Assembly: GCA_022822275.1 (NCBI GenBank)
Contig: JAJEBZ010000103.1
Coordinates: forward strand, 1-34,523
DNA: 34,523 nucleotides
Reading direction: 5' to 3'
Origin: Candidatus Poribacteria bacterium
GTDB taxonomy: Bacteria; Poribacteria; WGA-4E; WGA-3G
The notes below the pieces were generated by a model that did no database searches, was not told where the DNA came from, and saw only the letters and a list, made by a program, of their open reading frames with translations. A program made the translations under genes and the position numbers. Shown here piece after piece: positions 6,312 through 12,134 of the stretch (position 1 is its first letter; each line of letters begins with the position of its first letter).

Positions 6312-7808
6312 CTATATATCCGCAAGGACACCATCAAGGTATGCGTCCATATCTTCCTTCATCTTTTTCAATTCGTCCATGTCAATATACATCATGTGTC
6401 CCGCTTTGTAATACGCCATTGTGATGTTGTCCTGCAAAGACTTGTCCAAGCCAAGATGCGAAAATGTGTATTCAGATGCTAAAAACGGGGTTGCTAAATC
6501 AAAATAACCATTGGCAACATACACTTTCAACGCAGGGTTTGTTGTCATCGCCTTGCGTAGTGTATCCGCAACGTTCACATACTCGTTCTGATGACTTTTA
6601 TAGTCCCAAGGATGCACACGCCCACTAAGGATTTCATAAGGGAGATCGCTTTCAAATTCAAGATCACCTCGCACATAGTCGTTAAGAGTAGCAGTATATG
6701 CACCTTGAATTACCGCAGAACTGGGGTCATATTCATAATTCTCTCCCGCAGAATCTCGGTCTATTCCAGTAAAACGACTATCAAAACGACCAACCGTACG
6801 CCCCTCTTCTCGCAGCAGTTCCTTGCAGAACCTGTTAATCCGAATACGCAGATCCGTTTTTTCTATGTAGTCAGTAGAAAGACCAGTGTACATTGCCAAT
6901 TTCTTAACAATCGCTTGCTTTCTACGATCCGAAATATCTGATCCTTGCATCAATGCCGCAGTATAATCCCCTAAAGCAAAAGACCTTACCTCGTCCAAGA
7001 TACTTTCAAAACTGCCTTCCTGTTTTGTATCCAATTCGCTAAGCTTGCCGTGCCAAAACGCTGTCGCAGTATAAGTTGGTAGAAAAAGAATATACGGTAA
7101 GTCGTTCCCAACTGCGAATCGAATTGTCTGAAAATTCAGCACTACCGAGACCAACATAATACCGTTGAGATAAGTTCCGTTCCTATCCTGTAGATAACCT
7201 GACAAACCACATGCACGTGTTGTTCCATAGCTTTCACCAATCAAGAATTTCGGTGAACGCCAACGTTTATATCGTCCTAAGAATAGCAGAATAAAATCAC
7301 CCACGGATTCAATATCCTTTTGAAATCCATGAAACTGCTTCGCTTCTTCACCGGGCACTGCTCTGCTAAAACCCGTACTGACAGGATCGATGAAGACCAG
7401 ATCAGTTTTATCCAAAATGGAAAATTCGTTGTTAGTCAGTTCATACGGCGGCTGAGGTGGATTTCCATCCTCATCGGGCTTAACACGCCGCGGGCCCAAT
7501 ACACCCAAATGCAACCAAACCGATGAAGACCCCGGGCCCCCATTAAATGAAAATGTTATGGGACGCTCAGACTTATCCTCCACATCGTCAAGGGTATATG
7601 CAACAAAGAAAATTGACGCTTTCGGTTTCTCTCCCTCCTTGTCAACTTCTTTCTTCAAGACAAGTGTCCCCGCTGTCGCAGTATACTTCAGCTCTTTACC
7701 ATTTATCGTCACACTATGGTGCGTAACAGAAAGGTTATCTTCAGGTGTTGAGTTATCCTTTTCTTCAGACTTCTGCTCATCAGTATCTTTCTTTTCTTCT
7801 TTGCTCAT
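6312..7808 (-). CDS. Serine carboxypeptidase-like protein (peptidase S10 family)
   Basis: A 498-residue alpha/beta-hydrolase. The S10 signature NGGPGSSS is at 89-96 (oxyanion region), the nucleophile is S193 in GESYGTT, the Asp is probably D437 in ANGYFDLATP, and the His is H471 in KAGHMMY. The family cleaves C-terminal residues from peptides. It has no signal peptide: the first 25 residues are Lys/Glu/Asp-rich, so the protein looks cytoplasmic, unlike eukaryotic vacuolar homologues. The ATG has AAGGAAG upstream. It opens the minus-strand run with the Gfo/Idh/MocA and AAA/TOPRIM genes and is divergent from the gene at 7928. Confidence 0.92.
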   Translation of the reverse strand: MSKEEKKDTDEQKSEEKDNSTPEDNLSVTHHSVTINGKELKYTATAGTLVLKKEVDKEGEKPKASIFFVAYTLDDVEDKSERPITFSFNGGPGSSSVWLHLGVLGPRRVKPDEDGNPPQPPYELTNNEFSILDKTDLVFIDPVSTGFSRAVPGEEAKQFHGFQKDIESVGDFILLFLGRYKRWRSPKFLIGESYGTTRACGLSGYLQDRNGTYLNGIMLVSVVLNFQTIRFAVGNDLPYILFLPTYTATAFWHGKLSELDTKQEGSFESILDEVRSFALGDYTAALMQGSDISDRRKQAIVKKLAMYTGLSTDYIEKTDLRIRINRFCKELLREEGRTVGRFDSRFTGIDRDSAGENYEYDPSSAVIQGAYTATLNDYVRGDLEFESDLPYEILSGRVHPWDYKSHQNEYVNVADTLRKAMTTNPALKVYVANGYFDLATPFLASEYTFSHLGLDKSLQDNITMAYYKAGHMMYIDMDELKKMKEDMDAYLDGVLADI

Positions 7809-7881
7809 ACGTTCTTCCTTTTTCTATATGAATTATGCCTTCATTTTAGCACATATTCTGAAATAGGTGTTACAAAATTGT

Positions 7882-7909
7882 TTGATATTTTGTCTGAATG
7901 TGGTAAACT
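7882..7909 (+). promoter_or_regulatory. Candidate sigma70 promoter for the second Gfo/Idh/MocA gene
   Basis: TTGATA (7882-7887) and TAAACT (7904-7909) are separated by 16 bases in the short divergent intergenic region. The ribosome site AAAAGGAG and the ATG at 7928 follow at once, so the leader would be short. Called by pattern only. Confidence 0.4.
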
Positions 7910-7927
7910 CTAAAAAAGGAGTATGAG

Positions 7928-8977
7928 ATGAGAAAACCGATACGTATAGGACTAATAGGGTGTGGCGGAATTGTTCAGAAAACCCATGCCCGCGCCTATC
8001 TTTCACTTGCAGATACCGTCAAAGTCACTGCTCTGGCAGATGTTGTAACAGAGAATATGGAAAAGGTTGGTGAACAGTTTGCTGTCCCAATAGAAAATCG
8101 TTTTACAGACTACCGAGATATGCTTGCACAAGCAGATCTTGATGCAGTGACTATTGCTACTCCGCATTCACTGCATGCTGAACAGGTGATTGAATCCGCT
8201 AACGCAGGAGTAGCGATTATCTCTGAAAAACCAATGGCGACAACCCTTGAAGAAGCAGATGAAATTATGGAAACCCTAAGAAACTGCTGCATACCTTACA
8301 CTGTTATTCATAACTACCTTTTTACCGCTGGAATGCAAAAGGCAATTTCCCTACTCCCTGAAATAGGTAAACCCCATTTCGGTCACAGCACCGGAATGGG
8401 ATTAAAACCTACAGATTTTTCTGCTAACCATTCAACGCCTGCGTTTGCATGGCGTGCAAGCAAAGCAAAAGGTGGCGGATGTGTCAGCGATACCAGTTAT
8501 CATGAAATCTATGCCGTCACGACACTCATGCAATCACCAATTCGGTATGTTGAAGCACGCGTCAAAACAATGTGCTTTGACATAGATGTAGATGACATCG
8601 CAATGTTACTGTGTGAACACCAAAACGGTGCGATCACAACAGTTTCTGGGGCATGGTGCGTTCCCGCAACAGATTTTGGTTGGTGCGAAATTCATGCAGA
8701 AAACGGTTCCCTTCGTGTCCGTCATCGCTATAATGTCCGTGACGCACTTCGCCAATATACAAGAACAGAAGGATGGAAGCAATTGGAACTCACAAATCTT
8801 GATGAAGAGGGACTCAAAGATGCAAGCGGACACATCGCATATTTTACCGCAACCCTAAATGCACTTGCAGCAGGCAAGCCAATGCCAATCAGCGCAGAAA
8901 ATGCATACCACAATCTTGCTATCATTGATGCCGCACGAAAAGCAACCACCAAACGCCGTGCAATTGAGGTGCAGTAA
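7928..8977 (+). CDS. Gfo/Idh/MocA family oxidoreductase
   Basis: A 349-residue NAD(P)-dependent oxidoreductase. The Rossmann motif is G11-C-G-G-I15 and the signature is E100-K-P102 with the conserved Lys. The segment GGGCVSD188-TSYH192 is the typical D-xxx-H of the C-terminal catalytic site. It keeps the full K/D/H set, so it should be catalytic. Substrate unknown; sugars, inositols or their derivatives are usual. The start follows AAAAGGAG by about seven bases; an ATG at 7923 is out of frame and hits a stop at once. It stands alone on the plus strand, divergent from the S10 run, and ends before a possible hairpin terminator. Confidence 0.94.
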   Translation: MRKPIRIGLIGCGGIVQKTHARAYLSLADTVKVTALADVVTENMEKVGEQFAVPIENRFTDYRDMLAQADLDAVTIATPHSLHAEQVIESANAGVAIISEKPMATTLEEADEIMETLRNCCIPYTVIHNYLFTAGMQKAISLLPEIGKPHFGHSTGMGLKPTDFSANHSTPAFAWRASKAKGGGCVSDTSYHEIYAVTTLMQSPIRYVEARVKTMCFDIDVDDIAMLLCEHQNGAITTVSGAWCVPATDFGWCEIHAENGSLRVRHRYNVRDALRQYTRTEGWKQLELTNLDEEGLKDASGHIAYFTATLNALAAGKPMPISAENAYHNLAIIDAARKATTKRRAIEVQ

Positions 8978-9016
8978 AAAAACATTGAGATTCATTATTG
9001 TTATGACAACTGATAT

Positions 9017-9056
9017 TTACCGATGGTTTATATAAATCATCGGTAATCAAGATTTT
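9017..9056 (+). terminator. Possible Rho-independent terminator
   Basis: TTACCGATG (9017-9025) pairs perfectly with CATCGGTAA (9038-9046) across a 12-base loop. The bases TCAAGATTTTT follow. The stem is only nine pairs and the T-run starts five bases after it, so this is a plausible but not strong terminator for the gene ending at 8977. Confidence 0.45.
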
Positions 9057-9263
9057 TATGTATTGTTCATGACAATGCGTTATGATTTCCAGAGGCATTC
9101 AATAGTCCAGTTTTTTCAAATACATTATGAAGCATTAATGGAAATCTATAGGATATTTATTGGATATCTATTGTTCCACACCAAAGACAATTTGGAAACT
9201 GACACGCATGACGCGCTATACTATAAAAAAAGCAAAATAAATCACAACAAACGTTAAAAACAC

Positions 9264-9292
9264 TTGACATACATTATTATACGTGTTATAAT
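9264..9292 (+). promoter_or_regulatory. Perfect-consensus sigma70 promoter
   Basis: TTGACA (9264-9269) and TATAAT (9287-9292) are exact consensus hexamers with an optimal 17-base spacer. Transcription would start near 9299. The next start codon on this strand that I accept is 9761, over 450 bases away, so the product is either a long 5' leader or a non-coding RNA. Confidence 0.7.
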
Positions 9293-9488
9293 ATACTTCA
9301 CACATTAAACTTATGATAAAATATTATGACCACATCTATAAAACTGACACATTCCACTCATAAAATACAAGAAATTTCAAAATGTTACACTTTCCAAAAA
9401 AATATTTTTTTCAATTTACAAGAAATCGCCTGTTAACCCTTTCTACCACTGGGTTTACACCACATTTTAAATGTTCCCAAAAAAACGA

Positions 9489-9514
9489 AAAACGTTTTCA
9501 TTTGAAAACGTTTT
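9489..9514. promoter_or_regulatory. 26-base palindrome made of two AAAACGTTTT sites (possible operator or hairpin)
   Basis: AAAACGTTTTCA (9489-9500) and TGAAAACGTTTT (9503-9514) are exact reverse complements around TT. Each half contains the ten-base palindrome AAAACGTTTT, so the site is two operators 14 bases apart as well as one large hairpin. TGAAAACGTTTT resembles LacI-family and catabolite-response operators. No LacI-type regulator is in the window, so the role is inferred. Confidence 0.4.
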
Positions 9515-9676
9515 AAGGATTAATCGTCCAATAAAAACGCATAAATCAACACAGTTTTCGTAGAGGAAATTGACAGCATCTCCTACAAGAAACCTTAAAT
9601 CACTGGGGTTGAAAACACCACACACACAACAGTGTTTCTTGACAATTGAATGCCTCCGCTTTTCCACTTAAATAAT

Positions 9677-9705
9677 TTGATTTAATATGAGAATTCAAGT
9701 AAAAT
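9677..9705 (+). promoter_or_regulatory. Candidate promoter of the two-TM protein pair
   Basis: TTGATT (9677-9682) and TAAAAT (9700-9705) have a 17-base spacer and lie about 55 bases before the ATG at 9761. This may be the direct promoter of the two small membrane proteins, alternative to the consensus promoter at 9264. Confidence 0.4.
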
Positions 9706-9760
9706 ACAATAGATGTTTTTTCATTGCCTACACCGATTTTTCTAAGAAGCGAACATAAGT

Positions 9761-10075
9761 ATGAACAACGATTTGCACCAAGCACACATTGCAGCTTATC
9801 ATGATGCCCAAAATGGCGTAAATAAACTCTTATGGTTTGTTGTGGGTATAGTCGGCAACTTACTTGGCGTTATCATTGCTGCCATATATGAACCAACACC
9901 GTCTACGACACATCTATATTTAAATAAGCATTCACAAGAATTCATTGCGTATTACACAGATAACTATAAAATCAAAGCGAAAAGCATTCAACAAAACTGG
10001 GCTGCTTTAGGTCTTGGCAGCCAGTTTGTAGCCATAGTCCTGTTCGCAATTTGGATAAAAAGCAACTATCCATAA
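9761..10075 (+). CDS. Small two-TM membrane protein, paralogue A
   Basis: A 104-residue protein I do not recognise. Seen: a polar N-terminus with ANDA-like AYHDAQNGVNKLLW, a first hydrophobic segment at about 23-42 (LLWFVVGIVGNLLGVIIAAIY), a polar loop rich in Tyr, Lys and Ser with YYTDNYKIKAKSIQQNW, and a second hydrophobic segment at about 82-100. It matches the next gene in layout and motifs (KLLW, G in TM1, AxIY, YTD-YK-KS-IQ), so the two are tandem paralogues. No clear ribosome site beyond purine-rich AAGAAG. The conserved loop probably faces one side of the inner membrane. Function unknown. Confidence 0.7.
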   Translation: MNNDLHQAHIAAYHDAQNGVNKLLWFVVGIVGNLLGVIIAAIYEPTPSTTHLYLNKHSQEFIAYYTDNYKIKAKSIQQNWAALGLGSQFVAIVLFAIWIKSNYP

Positions 10076-10153
10076 CCTTCTCAAATTTTGAATGAACATA
10101 AACATTGTAATCTATATTGTTCTGTAAGTCGTTACAACTAACATAATAAGAGT

Positions 10154-10510
10154 ATGAATACAAACCGACACAAGATACAAGTTGAAGCTGAAAACGATGC
10201 ACAAACGGATACACACAAATTACTTTGGGTAATTGTCGGTGCAGCACTATCCGTTTTTGGACTACTGGCTGCTTACATATACCAACAGAATCCACCCTTA
10301 AGCCGAACTTATGGAATGGATGATGAAGAAACATATCTGTACACAGATGCATATAAAGCAAAATCACGTCAAATACAACTATCCTCAGCATTTATCGGTT
10401 TCATCATCAGTATCTTATTCTATGTGTTTCTCATAATAGCATTTTTCAGTATTTTCTTTACAACACAATCAGAAATTATAAAAGGTTTTGAACGGACTAG
10501 ACCATGGTAA
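10154..10510 (+). CDS. Small two-TM membrane protein, paralogue B
   Basis: A 118-residue protein related to the one 78 bases upstream. Both carry a DAQ-x-hKLLW entry into TM1 (about 22-43 here), a Pro-rich exit (YIYQQNPP), a Tyr/Asp loop ending TDAYKAKSRQIQ, and a second TM at about 79-104. Here TM2 is longer and Phe-rich (FYVFLIIAFFSIFF), and a short basic tail follows. The ribosome site is weak (AAGAG). The pair looks like a gene duplication within one transcript. I do not recognise the family; I infer an inner-membrane location only. Confidence 0.7.
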   Translation: MNTNRHKIQVEAENDAQTDTHKLLWVIVGAALSVFGLLAAYIYQQNPPLSRTYGMDDEETYLYTDAYKAKSRQIQLSSAFIGFIISILFYVFLIIAFFSIFFTTQSEIIKGFERTRPW

Positions 10511-10582
10511 TGTAAAATCAATTCATTGAAGAAAAACAAATTGTGTAAACACTAACCAAAATATATAGAACCCACAGTGTTT

Positions 10583-10752
10583 TATAATTATAACCTAAGT
10601 TGCCACCTTTGTAGCACAATCTGTTAGATTGTGCATCTTAAGCACACAAACTGACAGTTTGTGCTACAAAAATTTGCGAAAACTGTATTGTACACTATTA
10701 AAAACGGTGTCTGTAGGTCTAAATCCTATAGGTAGCAACTTGAGTAATTATA
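10583..10752. repeat. Nested inverted-repeat element with AAGTTGCCACC ends
   Basis: A left arm ending AAGTTGCCACC (10597-10607) faces a right arm GGTAGCAACTT (10731-10741). The flanking TATAATTA (10583) and TAATTATA (near 10745) also mirror each other. The 63-base hairpin element at 10608 sits directly inside the left arm, which looks like an element within an element. No coding capacity. Confidence 0.5.
10608..10670. repeat. 63-base double-hairpin repeat, copy 1
   Basis: The ends TTTGTAGCACA and TGTGCTACAAA are exact inverted repeats. Inside are two hairpins, GCACAATCTG against GATTGTGC and GCACACAAACTG against CAGTTTGTGC. A second 63-base element with the same outer ends is at 12147. Small size, hairpins and lack of an ORF fit a REP-like or palindromic repeat. 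Confidence 0.7.
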
Positions 10753-10886
10753 GTGAAATCCAAAAATATAGGCACACCCCCGGTAGGCGTGGTTTCCTAA
10801 CCGCACCAGACTCAGTCTGGGTAAACGGTGCGGTTAGGAAACCGCACCTATCAGGAATGTAAAAGTAATTATAGATTTCACTATAA
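10748..10886. repeat. TTATAGTGAAATC-type inverted-repeat element
   Basis: A 139-base element with ends TTATAGTGAAATC and GATTTCACTATAA, exact inverted repeats of 13 bases. The interior is a long hairpin: GTTTCCTAACCGCACC (about 10792-10807) faces GGTGCGGTTAGGAAAC (about 10829-10844). The GGTTAGGAAACCGC core is shared with the ATACCAAATTAAC family, although the ends differ. It sits just before the ribosome site of the barrel-protein gene and may carry its promoter region. Confidence 0.75.
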
Positions 10887-10918
10887 ATCATCACTCCAAT
10901 TTAAATGTAGGAGAAAAA

Positions 10919-11944
10919 ATGAAAATCAAAAGAATGTTTTATTTACTAATTGCTACAATGTTTGTCCTGACGTGCATTATGACCTATTCAACCTACGCAC
11001 AACAGAGTACAGACTCAAATGTCGTTCTTTCAACCCCCAGCACACTGTATATTGTGGATCATCTTGGTGTTAATGAAGTTGATGCAGAGAGTGCGGGGAA
11101 GTTAATAGCTGGTGAATTCCGCAAAATCGGAATTCCTATGAGTGGTCCTGTCTATGAAGAACCTAAAACCGGATACGTTTATCGTCTTTCATTTCAAAGT
11201 TTAGGAGAAAAGATCCTCGTTCATCTGAGCAGGGAAGTACCCGGAATGCCTGCTATTGAAAAACAGATATGGATTGACAATATTGAAGATTTGATTAAGG
11301 CTGCCCCCAGACTGGTAGATGCAGTGGTCCACAACAAAGACATCACCGAAACCACCGAAATGGGAACCGTTACGCAACATGAAGCCACTGAACTCAACAA
11401 AATTCCCGGCGAATCCCTATGGAATATGGGAATTTTCGGTGCTATTGTCCCTGGAACAGATTCCACTGTCGAACCCGGTTTTGAATTCGGTTGGTCCTAT
11501 GAGACCCCAAAGTACGCTGTGGGATCTGAATTCCGATTCAGCGTAAGTGGTGAATATGGTAAATATAATTTTGGATCTTGGTCAATAGGGGGGCGTTACT
11601 TCTTTAATACAAAGAATTTTTCACCCTATGTCGGGGGTGGACTCTCCATATTCGGTGGAAGTTATGGGGATTATTATTACGATGGGGATTATTATTACGA
11701 TGATGGTTATTATTACAATGATCGTAATTATTACGATGATTATGACGAATCAGGTAGAAATTCTGGTTTAGGAGCATACTTTGTCGGGGGAATTTCAATG
11801 CTAAGGCTAACGAAAAGTCGTCTAAAATTGGAAATACGTGTGGATAGACCCTTCTTTCGTTTGCCAGAAGATGACATGATGCCTATTACATTCGGTATCT
11901 TTTTCTCTCAACACTATGTCCCCGGCAGATCCGGTTGCTGGTAG
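10919..11944 (+). CDS. Secreted beta-barrel-like outer-membrane protein with a Tyr/Asp-rich loop
   Basis: A 341-residue protein with a Sec signal peptide (MKIKRMF, hydrophobic core 7-22, likely cut after A27 in STYAQQ). Residues 35-145 form a globular domain I cannot name. From about 170 the sequence alternates as in a small outer-membrane beta-barrel (FEFGWSYE, SIGGRYFF, FSPYVGGGLSIFGG, GAYFVGGISMLRL), ending with aromatic strands. A low-complexity segment at 251-277 is built of Asp, Tyr and Gly repeats (DYYYDG units) and would form an extracellular loop; at DNA level it is made of near-identical GATTATTATTACGAT units. The ATG follows GGAG closely. The repeats suggest length variation. Function unknown; surface exposure is inferred. 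Confidence 0.8.
   Translation: MKIKRMFYLLIATMFVLTCIMTYSTYAQQSTDSNVVLSTPSTLYIVDHLGVNEVDAESAGKLIAGEFRKIGIPMSGPVYEEPKTGYVYRLSFQSLGEKILVHLSREVPGMPAIEKQIWIDNIEDLIKAAPRLVDAVVHNKDITETTEMGTVTQHEATELNKIPGESLWNMGIFGAIVPGTDSTVEPGFEFGWSYETPKYAVGSEFRFSVSGEYGKYNFGSWSIGGRYFFNTKNFSPYVGGGLSIFGGSYGDYYYDGDYYYDDGYYYNDRNYYDDYDESGRNSGLGAYFVGGISMLRLTKSRLKLEIRVDRPFFRLPEDDMMPITFGIFFSQHYVPGRSGCW
11669..11749 (+). repeat. In-frame Tyr/Asp codon repeat
   Basis: Imperfect tandem units close to GATTATTATTACGAT with short GGG or GATGGT joints, encoding residues 251-277 of the barrel-like protein. Unit lengths stay in multiples of three, so unit gain or loss would keep the frame. Confidence 0.7.
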
Positions 11945-11986
11945 GAATGATTAAAAAAATAAAAAGATACCCAAGCTGACCTTGTT

Positions 11987-12134
11987 ATACCAAATTAACG
12001 CGATTTATAGCGGTAGGTTCGGTTTCCTAACCAATTCAGAATACCATACGCGTATTCTGATGAGCCACGGAACTGTCCGTAGGGGCGAGGTTGCCTCGTC
12101 CGTGAATACAAGACAAATCATGTTAATTTGGTAT
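11987..12134 (+). repeat. ATACCAAATTAAC-type inverted-repeat element, copy 3
   Basis: A 148-base element with ends ATACCAAATTAACGCGATT and its near-complement ending GTTAATTTGGTAT. It has the same length as copy 4 at 14678, and by eye the two differ at 11 positions with no gap. The interior has GGTTTCCTAACC, a near-palindrome at AGAATACC/ACGCGTATTCT and a GGGGCGAGG segment. It is non-coding and lies downstream of the barrel-protein gene. Confidence 0.85.

Follow-up and report, generated by a model that had tools for sequence, protein, structure and literature searches.

The window, a stretch of 34,523 nucleotides from a Candidatus Poribacteria genome (G000), carries on its forward strand a promoter made of TTGACA (9264–9269) and TATAAT (9287–9292), with a 17 bp spacer and a TG ahead of the −10 element. 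It matches the consensus at all 12 positions, as the initial annotation had reported, and is the top scorer among 17 promoter-like sites in 7500–12000, a total close to the chance expectation of 15.1 ± 3.9. The annotation had also called such an exact promoter rare. For the host genome this is wrong, because a search of its 4.53 Mb found 75 exact sites, compared with one site for the reversed pattern. Nine of the 75, assigned by position, fall in the cassette family described below. About 14 others belong to a separate repeat family whose promoter is likewise exact (TTGACATTTTTGGNAACCAATATTATAAT); repeats of this type lie on contigs C10, C116, C127, C148, C154, C187, C198, C218, C234, C262, and C312 of G000, and C218 has three tandem units of it at a spacing of 47 bp.

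The first gene-sized ORF on the forward strand begins at 9761, 468 bases past the −10 element, which agrees with the distance of more than 450 bases given earlier. It encodes a small membrane-like protein of 104 aa (9761–10075) to which a family search assigned no confident family. The adjacent ORF (10154–10510) likewise encodes a small membrane-like protein with no confident family assignment, and the N-terminal halves of the two are similar. The segment 10591–10886 contains further dispersed repeats, in part inverted copies of one another, which recur in several loci. The 26-base palindrome noted between promoter and gene is located at 9489–9514 and consists of two perfect 11 bp arms and a 4-base centre (AAAACGTTTTC-ATTT-GAAAACGTTTT), so that 24 of the 26 positions are self-complementary.

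Promoter and palindrome lie within a MITE-like element of 569 bp (9090–9658), which we delimited by aligning its copies and by its 18 bp terminal inverted repeats (TIRs), CAGAGGCATTCAATAGTC on the left (9090–9107, forward strand) and CGGAGGCATTCAATTGTC, as read on the reverse strand, on the right (9641–9658). Full-length aligned copies measure ~570 bp and have the terminal repeats CAGAGGCATTCAATTGTC. A search of the genome with up to three mismatches found 60 TIR matches, compared with two for the reversed-pattern control. The element thus combines TIRs with genomic repetition, and no transposase-sized ORF lies inside it. Several of the TIR matches are paired only ~110 bp apart, indicating that the element is a MITE shell that is often without the promoter. 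Target duplications of 8–9 bp were found at three copies (L009, L045, and L046), and none was clear at the window copy. At the orthologous place, the nearest relative that we compared (G007) shares both flanks and the left TIR with the window and has a different interior. Literature searches for this MITE found no description.

Outside the element, at 9677–9705 on the forward strand, lies a possible native promoter of the 104 aa gene (TTGATT-17-TAAAAT, 9/12), whose counterpart at the orthologous place in G007 is TTGACT-17-TAAAAT (10/12). We found no terminator-like site on the forward strand between the promoter at 9264–9292 and the gene. The initial annotation had raised the objection that a downstream promoter could make the only transcript, and this objection is live, because the gene has this possible nearer promoter, which is stronger in the relative. 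The cassette may drive the 104 aa gene, as a candidate only, given the possible native promoter.

The interior of the element is itself a dispersed repeat. A DNA search with 9200–9780 found, among the matches listed, at least ~20 places in G000 and at least ~20 in G007 with high identity, a recurrence that by sequence comparison exceeds chance. The interior, comprising the promoter and ~150 bp with repeated half-sites and a terminal dyad, recurs ~30 times in G000, mostly outside the MITE, and ~9256–9535 of the window is common to many copies that have no TIRs. The order of the cassette is promoter, variable stretch, site 0 (AAAATGTTACAC), a T-rich run, CCTGTAAACCC..ACTGGGTTTACA, site A (AAATGTTxxC), and the dyad B:C. 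Alignment of the copies places the near-invariant half-site 0 at 9379–9390 of the window and half-site A (AAATGTTCCC) at 9469–9478, 21 bp ahead of the equivalent base in half-site B, both on the forward strand. The conserved stretch CCTGTTAACCC-TTTCTACCACT-GGGTTTACA occupies 9429–9459 on the same strand, and its linear sequence is retained more widely than its stem. The palindrome at 9489–9514 is the dyad B:C.

The promoter scored 12/12 in 26 and 11/12 in seven of 37 copies (33 of 37 in total); among 1110 shuffled upstream sequences, ten reached 11/12 and none reached 12/12. In some copies the array is present without a good promoter (L046, 9/12; L107 and L121, 8/12). A covariance model found ~50 copies in each of G000 and G007, including a second cassette family with the motif CATACCACGGTATG-TTATTT-CATACCACGTGGTATG (the weakest of the matches listed were inspected in part). 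In further genomes of the genus, it found weaker relatives whose motifs differ. At one pair of orthologous genes, G000 has a single family-2 leader (L110, contig C143); G007 (L046, contig C138) retains this leader, behind which an insert of ~270 bp carries a family-1 array that has no good promoter.

In a scripted count across G000 and G007, in which genes were called by a simple ORF chooser, the next gene lay on the same strand as the cassette in 30 of 34 copies. The window was scored as opposite among the four exceptions because a spurious reverse-strand ORF (139 aa) overlies the real forward-strand genes. With the window corrected and five orthologous duplicates removed, 26 of 29 independent copies face a gene; the strands of genes upstream of the copies are split 18:17. 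Copies of the second family, with its different motif, face the downstream gene in 10 of 11 cases. The downstream genes are unrelated to one another, with putative resemblance by eye to murB, cinA, truA, tilS, gamma-glutamyltransferase, and others, and a long distance separates many copies in the presumed regulon from the next start codon. The initial annotation had suggested a non-coding RNA or a regulated leader. A regulated leader is borne out in spirit, in that dozens of copies jointly conserve the promoter, the half-site array, and the dyad and nearly always lie 5′ of a same-strand gene; what is present is not a gene-specific leader, but a dispersed cassette that in the window lies within a MITE-like element.

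We considered whether the leader encodes a peptide. Stops and indels interrupt the frame of a 44-codon ORF (9382–9516) in most of the 34 copies compared; a second frame (PINPYxDW) stays open in only part of the copies and is interrupted in the rest. A leader peptide is thereby refuted, and the window leader is, as judged from the aligned copies, non-coding. An Rfam search found no family above its gathering score; the best match was RefA9, at 29.1 bits versus a threshold of 49.

At L022 and several related loci, the cassette is followed directly by the ribosome-binding site (RBS) and start codon of a gene encoding a member of a Poribacteria-only protein family of ~220–250 aa, which we term X. 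The dyad of these genes lies just ahead of the RBS and start codon, and the same layout precedes nearly all X genes (the exceptions are L143, L144, and L152). The motif varies from leader to leader (TGTTACAC, GTTACC, GATACC, CGTACAC, CGCACAA, CGAACCA, TGTACC, CCGTACC, and CTTACC), and the dyad scores 12.5 versus 2.9 in shuffles. The sites of one leader change in concert: the motif of a given X leader recurs in the rest of that leader better than foreign motifs do (0.873 versus 0.760; permutation p ≤ 5e-5). Offsets between repeated words, taken from 19 partly related leaders, cluster at 9–12, 19–23, and 29–31 bp, with two at 13–18 bp and none at 24–28 bp. These distances correspond to about one, two, or three helical turns, as expected if the sites share one face of the DNA.

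X is a helical protein with an N-terminal three-helix unit that is well predicted in an AlphaFold model (pLDDT 78); a fold search with this model matched no known structure. DUF2280 (PF10045) was matched at E < 0.1 by 19 of 22 X proteins (best 1e-5), and among the bit scores that we read for individual members the highest was 22.5, under the Pfam gathering cut-off of 24 bits. The Pfam search found no transposase and no recognised catalytic domain, and literature searches on the function of DUF2280 found no description. In the genome of the window, X sits, as judged by eye, between histidine kinase-like and sigma-factor-like genes. In two other genomes (G016 and G005), X and its leader lie inside type I-B/III-A CRISPR-cas genes (L176, 8861–9541; L177, 2369–3052), after cas3 and before cas10 or cas4. 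We rejected a CRISPR function for X: the array repeat at the cas loci is unlike the motif, and the setting of X in the genome of the window is, by eye, a non-cas one. We likewise rejected X as cargo of a TIR transposon, as no TIR pair encloses the X gene in the loci examined, and a phage origin, as viral contigs and phage records held no relative. A further genome (G002) has ~20 matches to only the first 24–30 codons of X, several of them right behind leaders, which are truncated X elements.

X was found in 42 and the leader model in 40 of 85 genomes of the phylum, and both are confined to the same two genera (g1 and g9) of 22. Both occur in 33 genomes, X only in nine, the leader only in seven, and neither in 36; this co-occurrence is partly due to phylogeny, and the leader model is insensitive to distant motifs. 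Within the genus, X is present in 16 of 18 genomes, and in the GTDB collection it occurs only in Poribacteria records. In G007 the X gene contains stops, yet many leader copies persist, and no X bearing the family-2 motif was seen in G000.

Dozens of copies of one cassette stand before unrelated genes and before the gene of a probable regulator, an arrangement that looks like the wiring of genes to one switch by promoter copying. This lineage-specific gene is that of X, which is probably the regulator of the cassette. As to how it would act, we give roughly an even chance to a model in which X binds the array as DNA and regulates both itself and a regulon that has grown by copying of the cassette. 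In this model, the 5′ region of the X gene constitutes the cassette: a near-perfect sigma-70 promoter, ~50–160 bp, and then an array of half-sites (0, A, B, and inverted C) that ends in the dyad, which is the proposed operator. X would bind its own motif, probably as cooperating units on one face of the helix, and once bound would repress or modulate transcription from the promoter upstream. MITEs and other kinds of duplication would carry copies ahead of other genes. These genes would then be driven by that strong promoter and, if their motif still fits, be controlled by X. Several findings count against a DNA-binding regulator: the array lies ~80–220 bp downstream of the promoter, which is unusual for a repressor; X has no structure match and only sub-cut-off similarity to DUF2280; and there are the broken X gene of G007, the family-2 leaders of G000 with no matching X seen, and the leader-only and X-only genomes.

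Control at the level of RNA would account for some of the same data. Hairpins in the transcribed leader, with A:C competing with B:C and a stem in the central stretch, would act on the downstream gene, possibly with X bound to the RNA as in autogenous translational control. The position of the dyad directly ahead of the RBS in X genes is consistent with this, and the window leader folds better than its shuffles (z = −2.2). Arm C is common to A:C and B:C, and two-sided changes preserve the pairing in both (23 and 21 cells; none of 500 shuffles was as high). An RNA hairpin would keep such paired changes, which also counts against DNA binding, but they are not decisive because they are equally expected from dyad DNA sites. 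The helical phasing of the sites argues against the RNA mechanism, as do the absence of a shared fold among the direct repeats 0, A, and B, the loss of the central stem in many X leaders that retain the linear sequence, the lack of an Rfam match, and the distance of many regulon copies from the next start codon. We consider it unlikely, and the change of motif and the spacing favour DNA operators over the non-coding RNA of the initial annotation, although an RNA hairpin may yet play a part.

The repeats could also be a population that X or a partner mobilises, with their nearness to genes a by-product. There are usually few X genes per genome and tens of repeats, the repeats are palindromic, their motif co-evolves with X, the two share genera, and RAYT/REPIN provides a precedent (PMC8049555). 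A conserved promoter and a gene-facing orientation would be superfluous for a neutral repeat, however, and X has no recognised catalytic domain; furthermore, the MITE ends of the window copy are common to MITEs without the cassette. We regard this explanation as improbable, and we give a smaller chance still to the view that MITEs simply spread a strong constitutive promoter and that the dyad array matters only at X. Conservation of promoter and orientation would be expected of such a mobile promoter, and so would leaders without an intact cognate X, as in G007 and among the family-2 leaders of G000. It does not explain why the regulon copies conserve the ~150 bp array no less than the promoter, or why L046, L107, and L121 have an array and no good promoter.

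Taken furthest, the model of an X-regulated, copied cassette would describe Poribacteria-specific regulators that change their DNA specificity together with their own operators, and mobile elements that copy the whole cassette before unrelated genes and so build and rewire regulons. We put this forward tentatively, at somewhat short of even chances. If correct, it would be a concrete example of regulon growth through the copying of a whole promoter-operator unit, of which related genomes display stages: a different interior at the orthologous place of the window, and a second cassette with another motif behind the first in the relative. With their distinct motifs, the X proteins would form a natural set for the study of specificity change in a DNA-binding protein, and the cassette would open a way into the gene regulation of an uncultivated phylum of sponge symbionts.

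Each of the known systems that we compared resembles this one in part. The spot beside the gene for the terminase large subunit is the usual place of the DNA-binding small subunit. In an Acinetobacter prophage, a DUF2280 gene adjoins that of the large subunit (PMC7760358). Unlike the prophage gene, X was associated with neither a prophage nor terminase genes at the loci inspected, and its Pfam scores are sub-cut-off in the members read out. The window copy is like bacterial MITEs and mobile promoters in that it is short and non-coding, with TIRs and an outward-reading promoter, and several sister copies have target duplications of 8–9 bp; in contrast to MITEs, most cassette copies lie outside the element. 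No MITE promoter is known to be accompanied by an operator array that a regulator gene also carries.

Operators of autoregulated transcription factors, such as those that define the immunity groups of phage repressors, are tandem dyads near the regulator's own gene. Here too, specificity differs among relatives and all sites of one leader change together; unlike those operators, the X sites lie well downstream of the promoter, beside the RBS, and the X family is unrelated in sequence to known repressors. No conserved promoter is known from REPINs, whereas the cassette repeats carry a near-perfect promoter that faces genes. RAYT/REPIN systems usually comprise one or a few protein genes and many dispersed palindromic repeats whose sequence tracks the protein lineage (PMC8049555). 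Dispersed palindromic repeats that co-vary with the X lineage are what we found; RAYTs are tyrosine transposases, whereas X is not recognised by Pfam as a tyrosine transposase (Y1) and has no recognised transposase domain. A promoter and transcription-factor role was once speculated for REPIN/RAYT (PMC8049555), and if X does regulate the cassette, the two would be such a pair, here with a real promoter.
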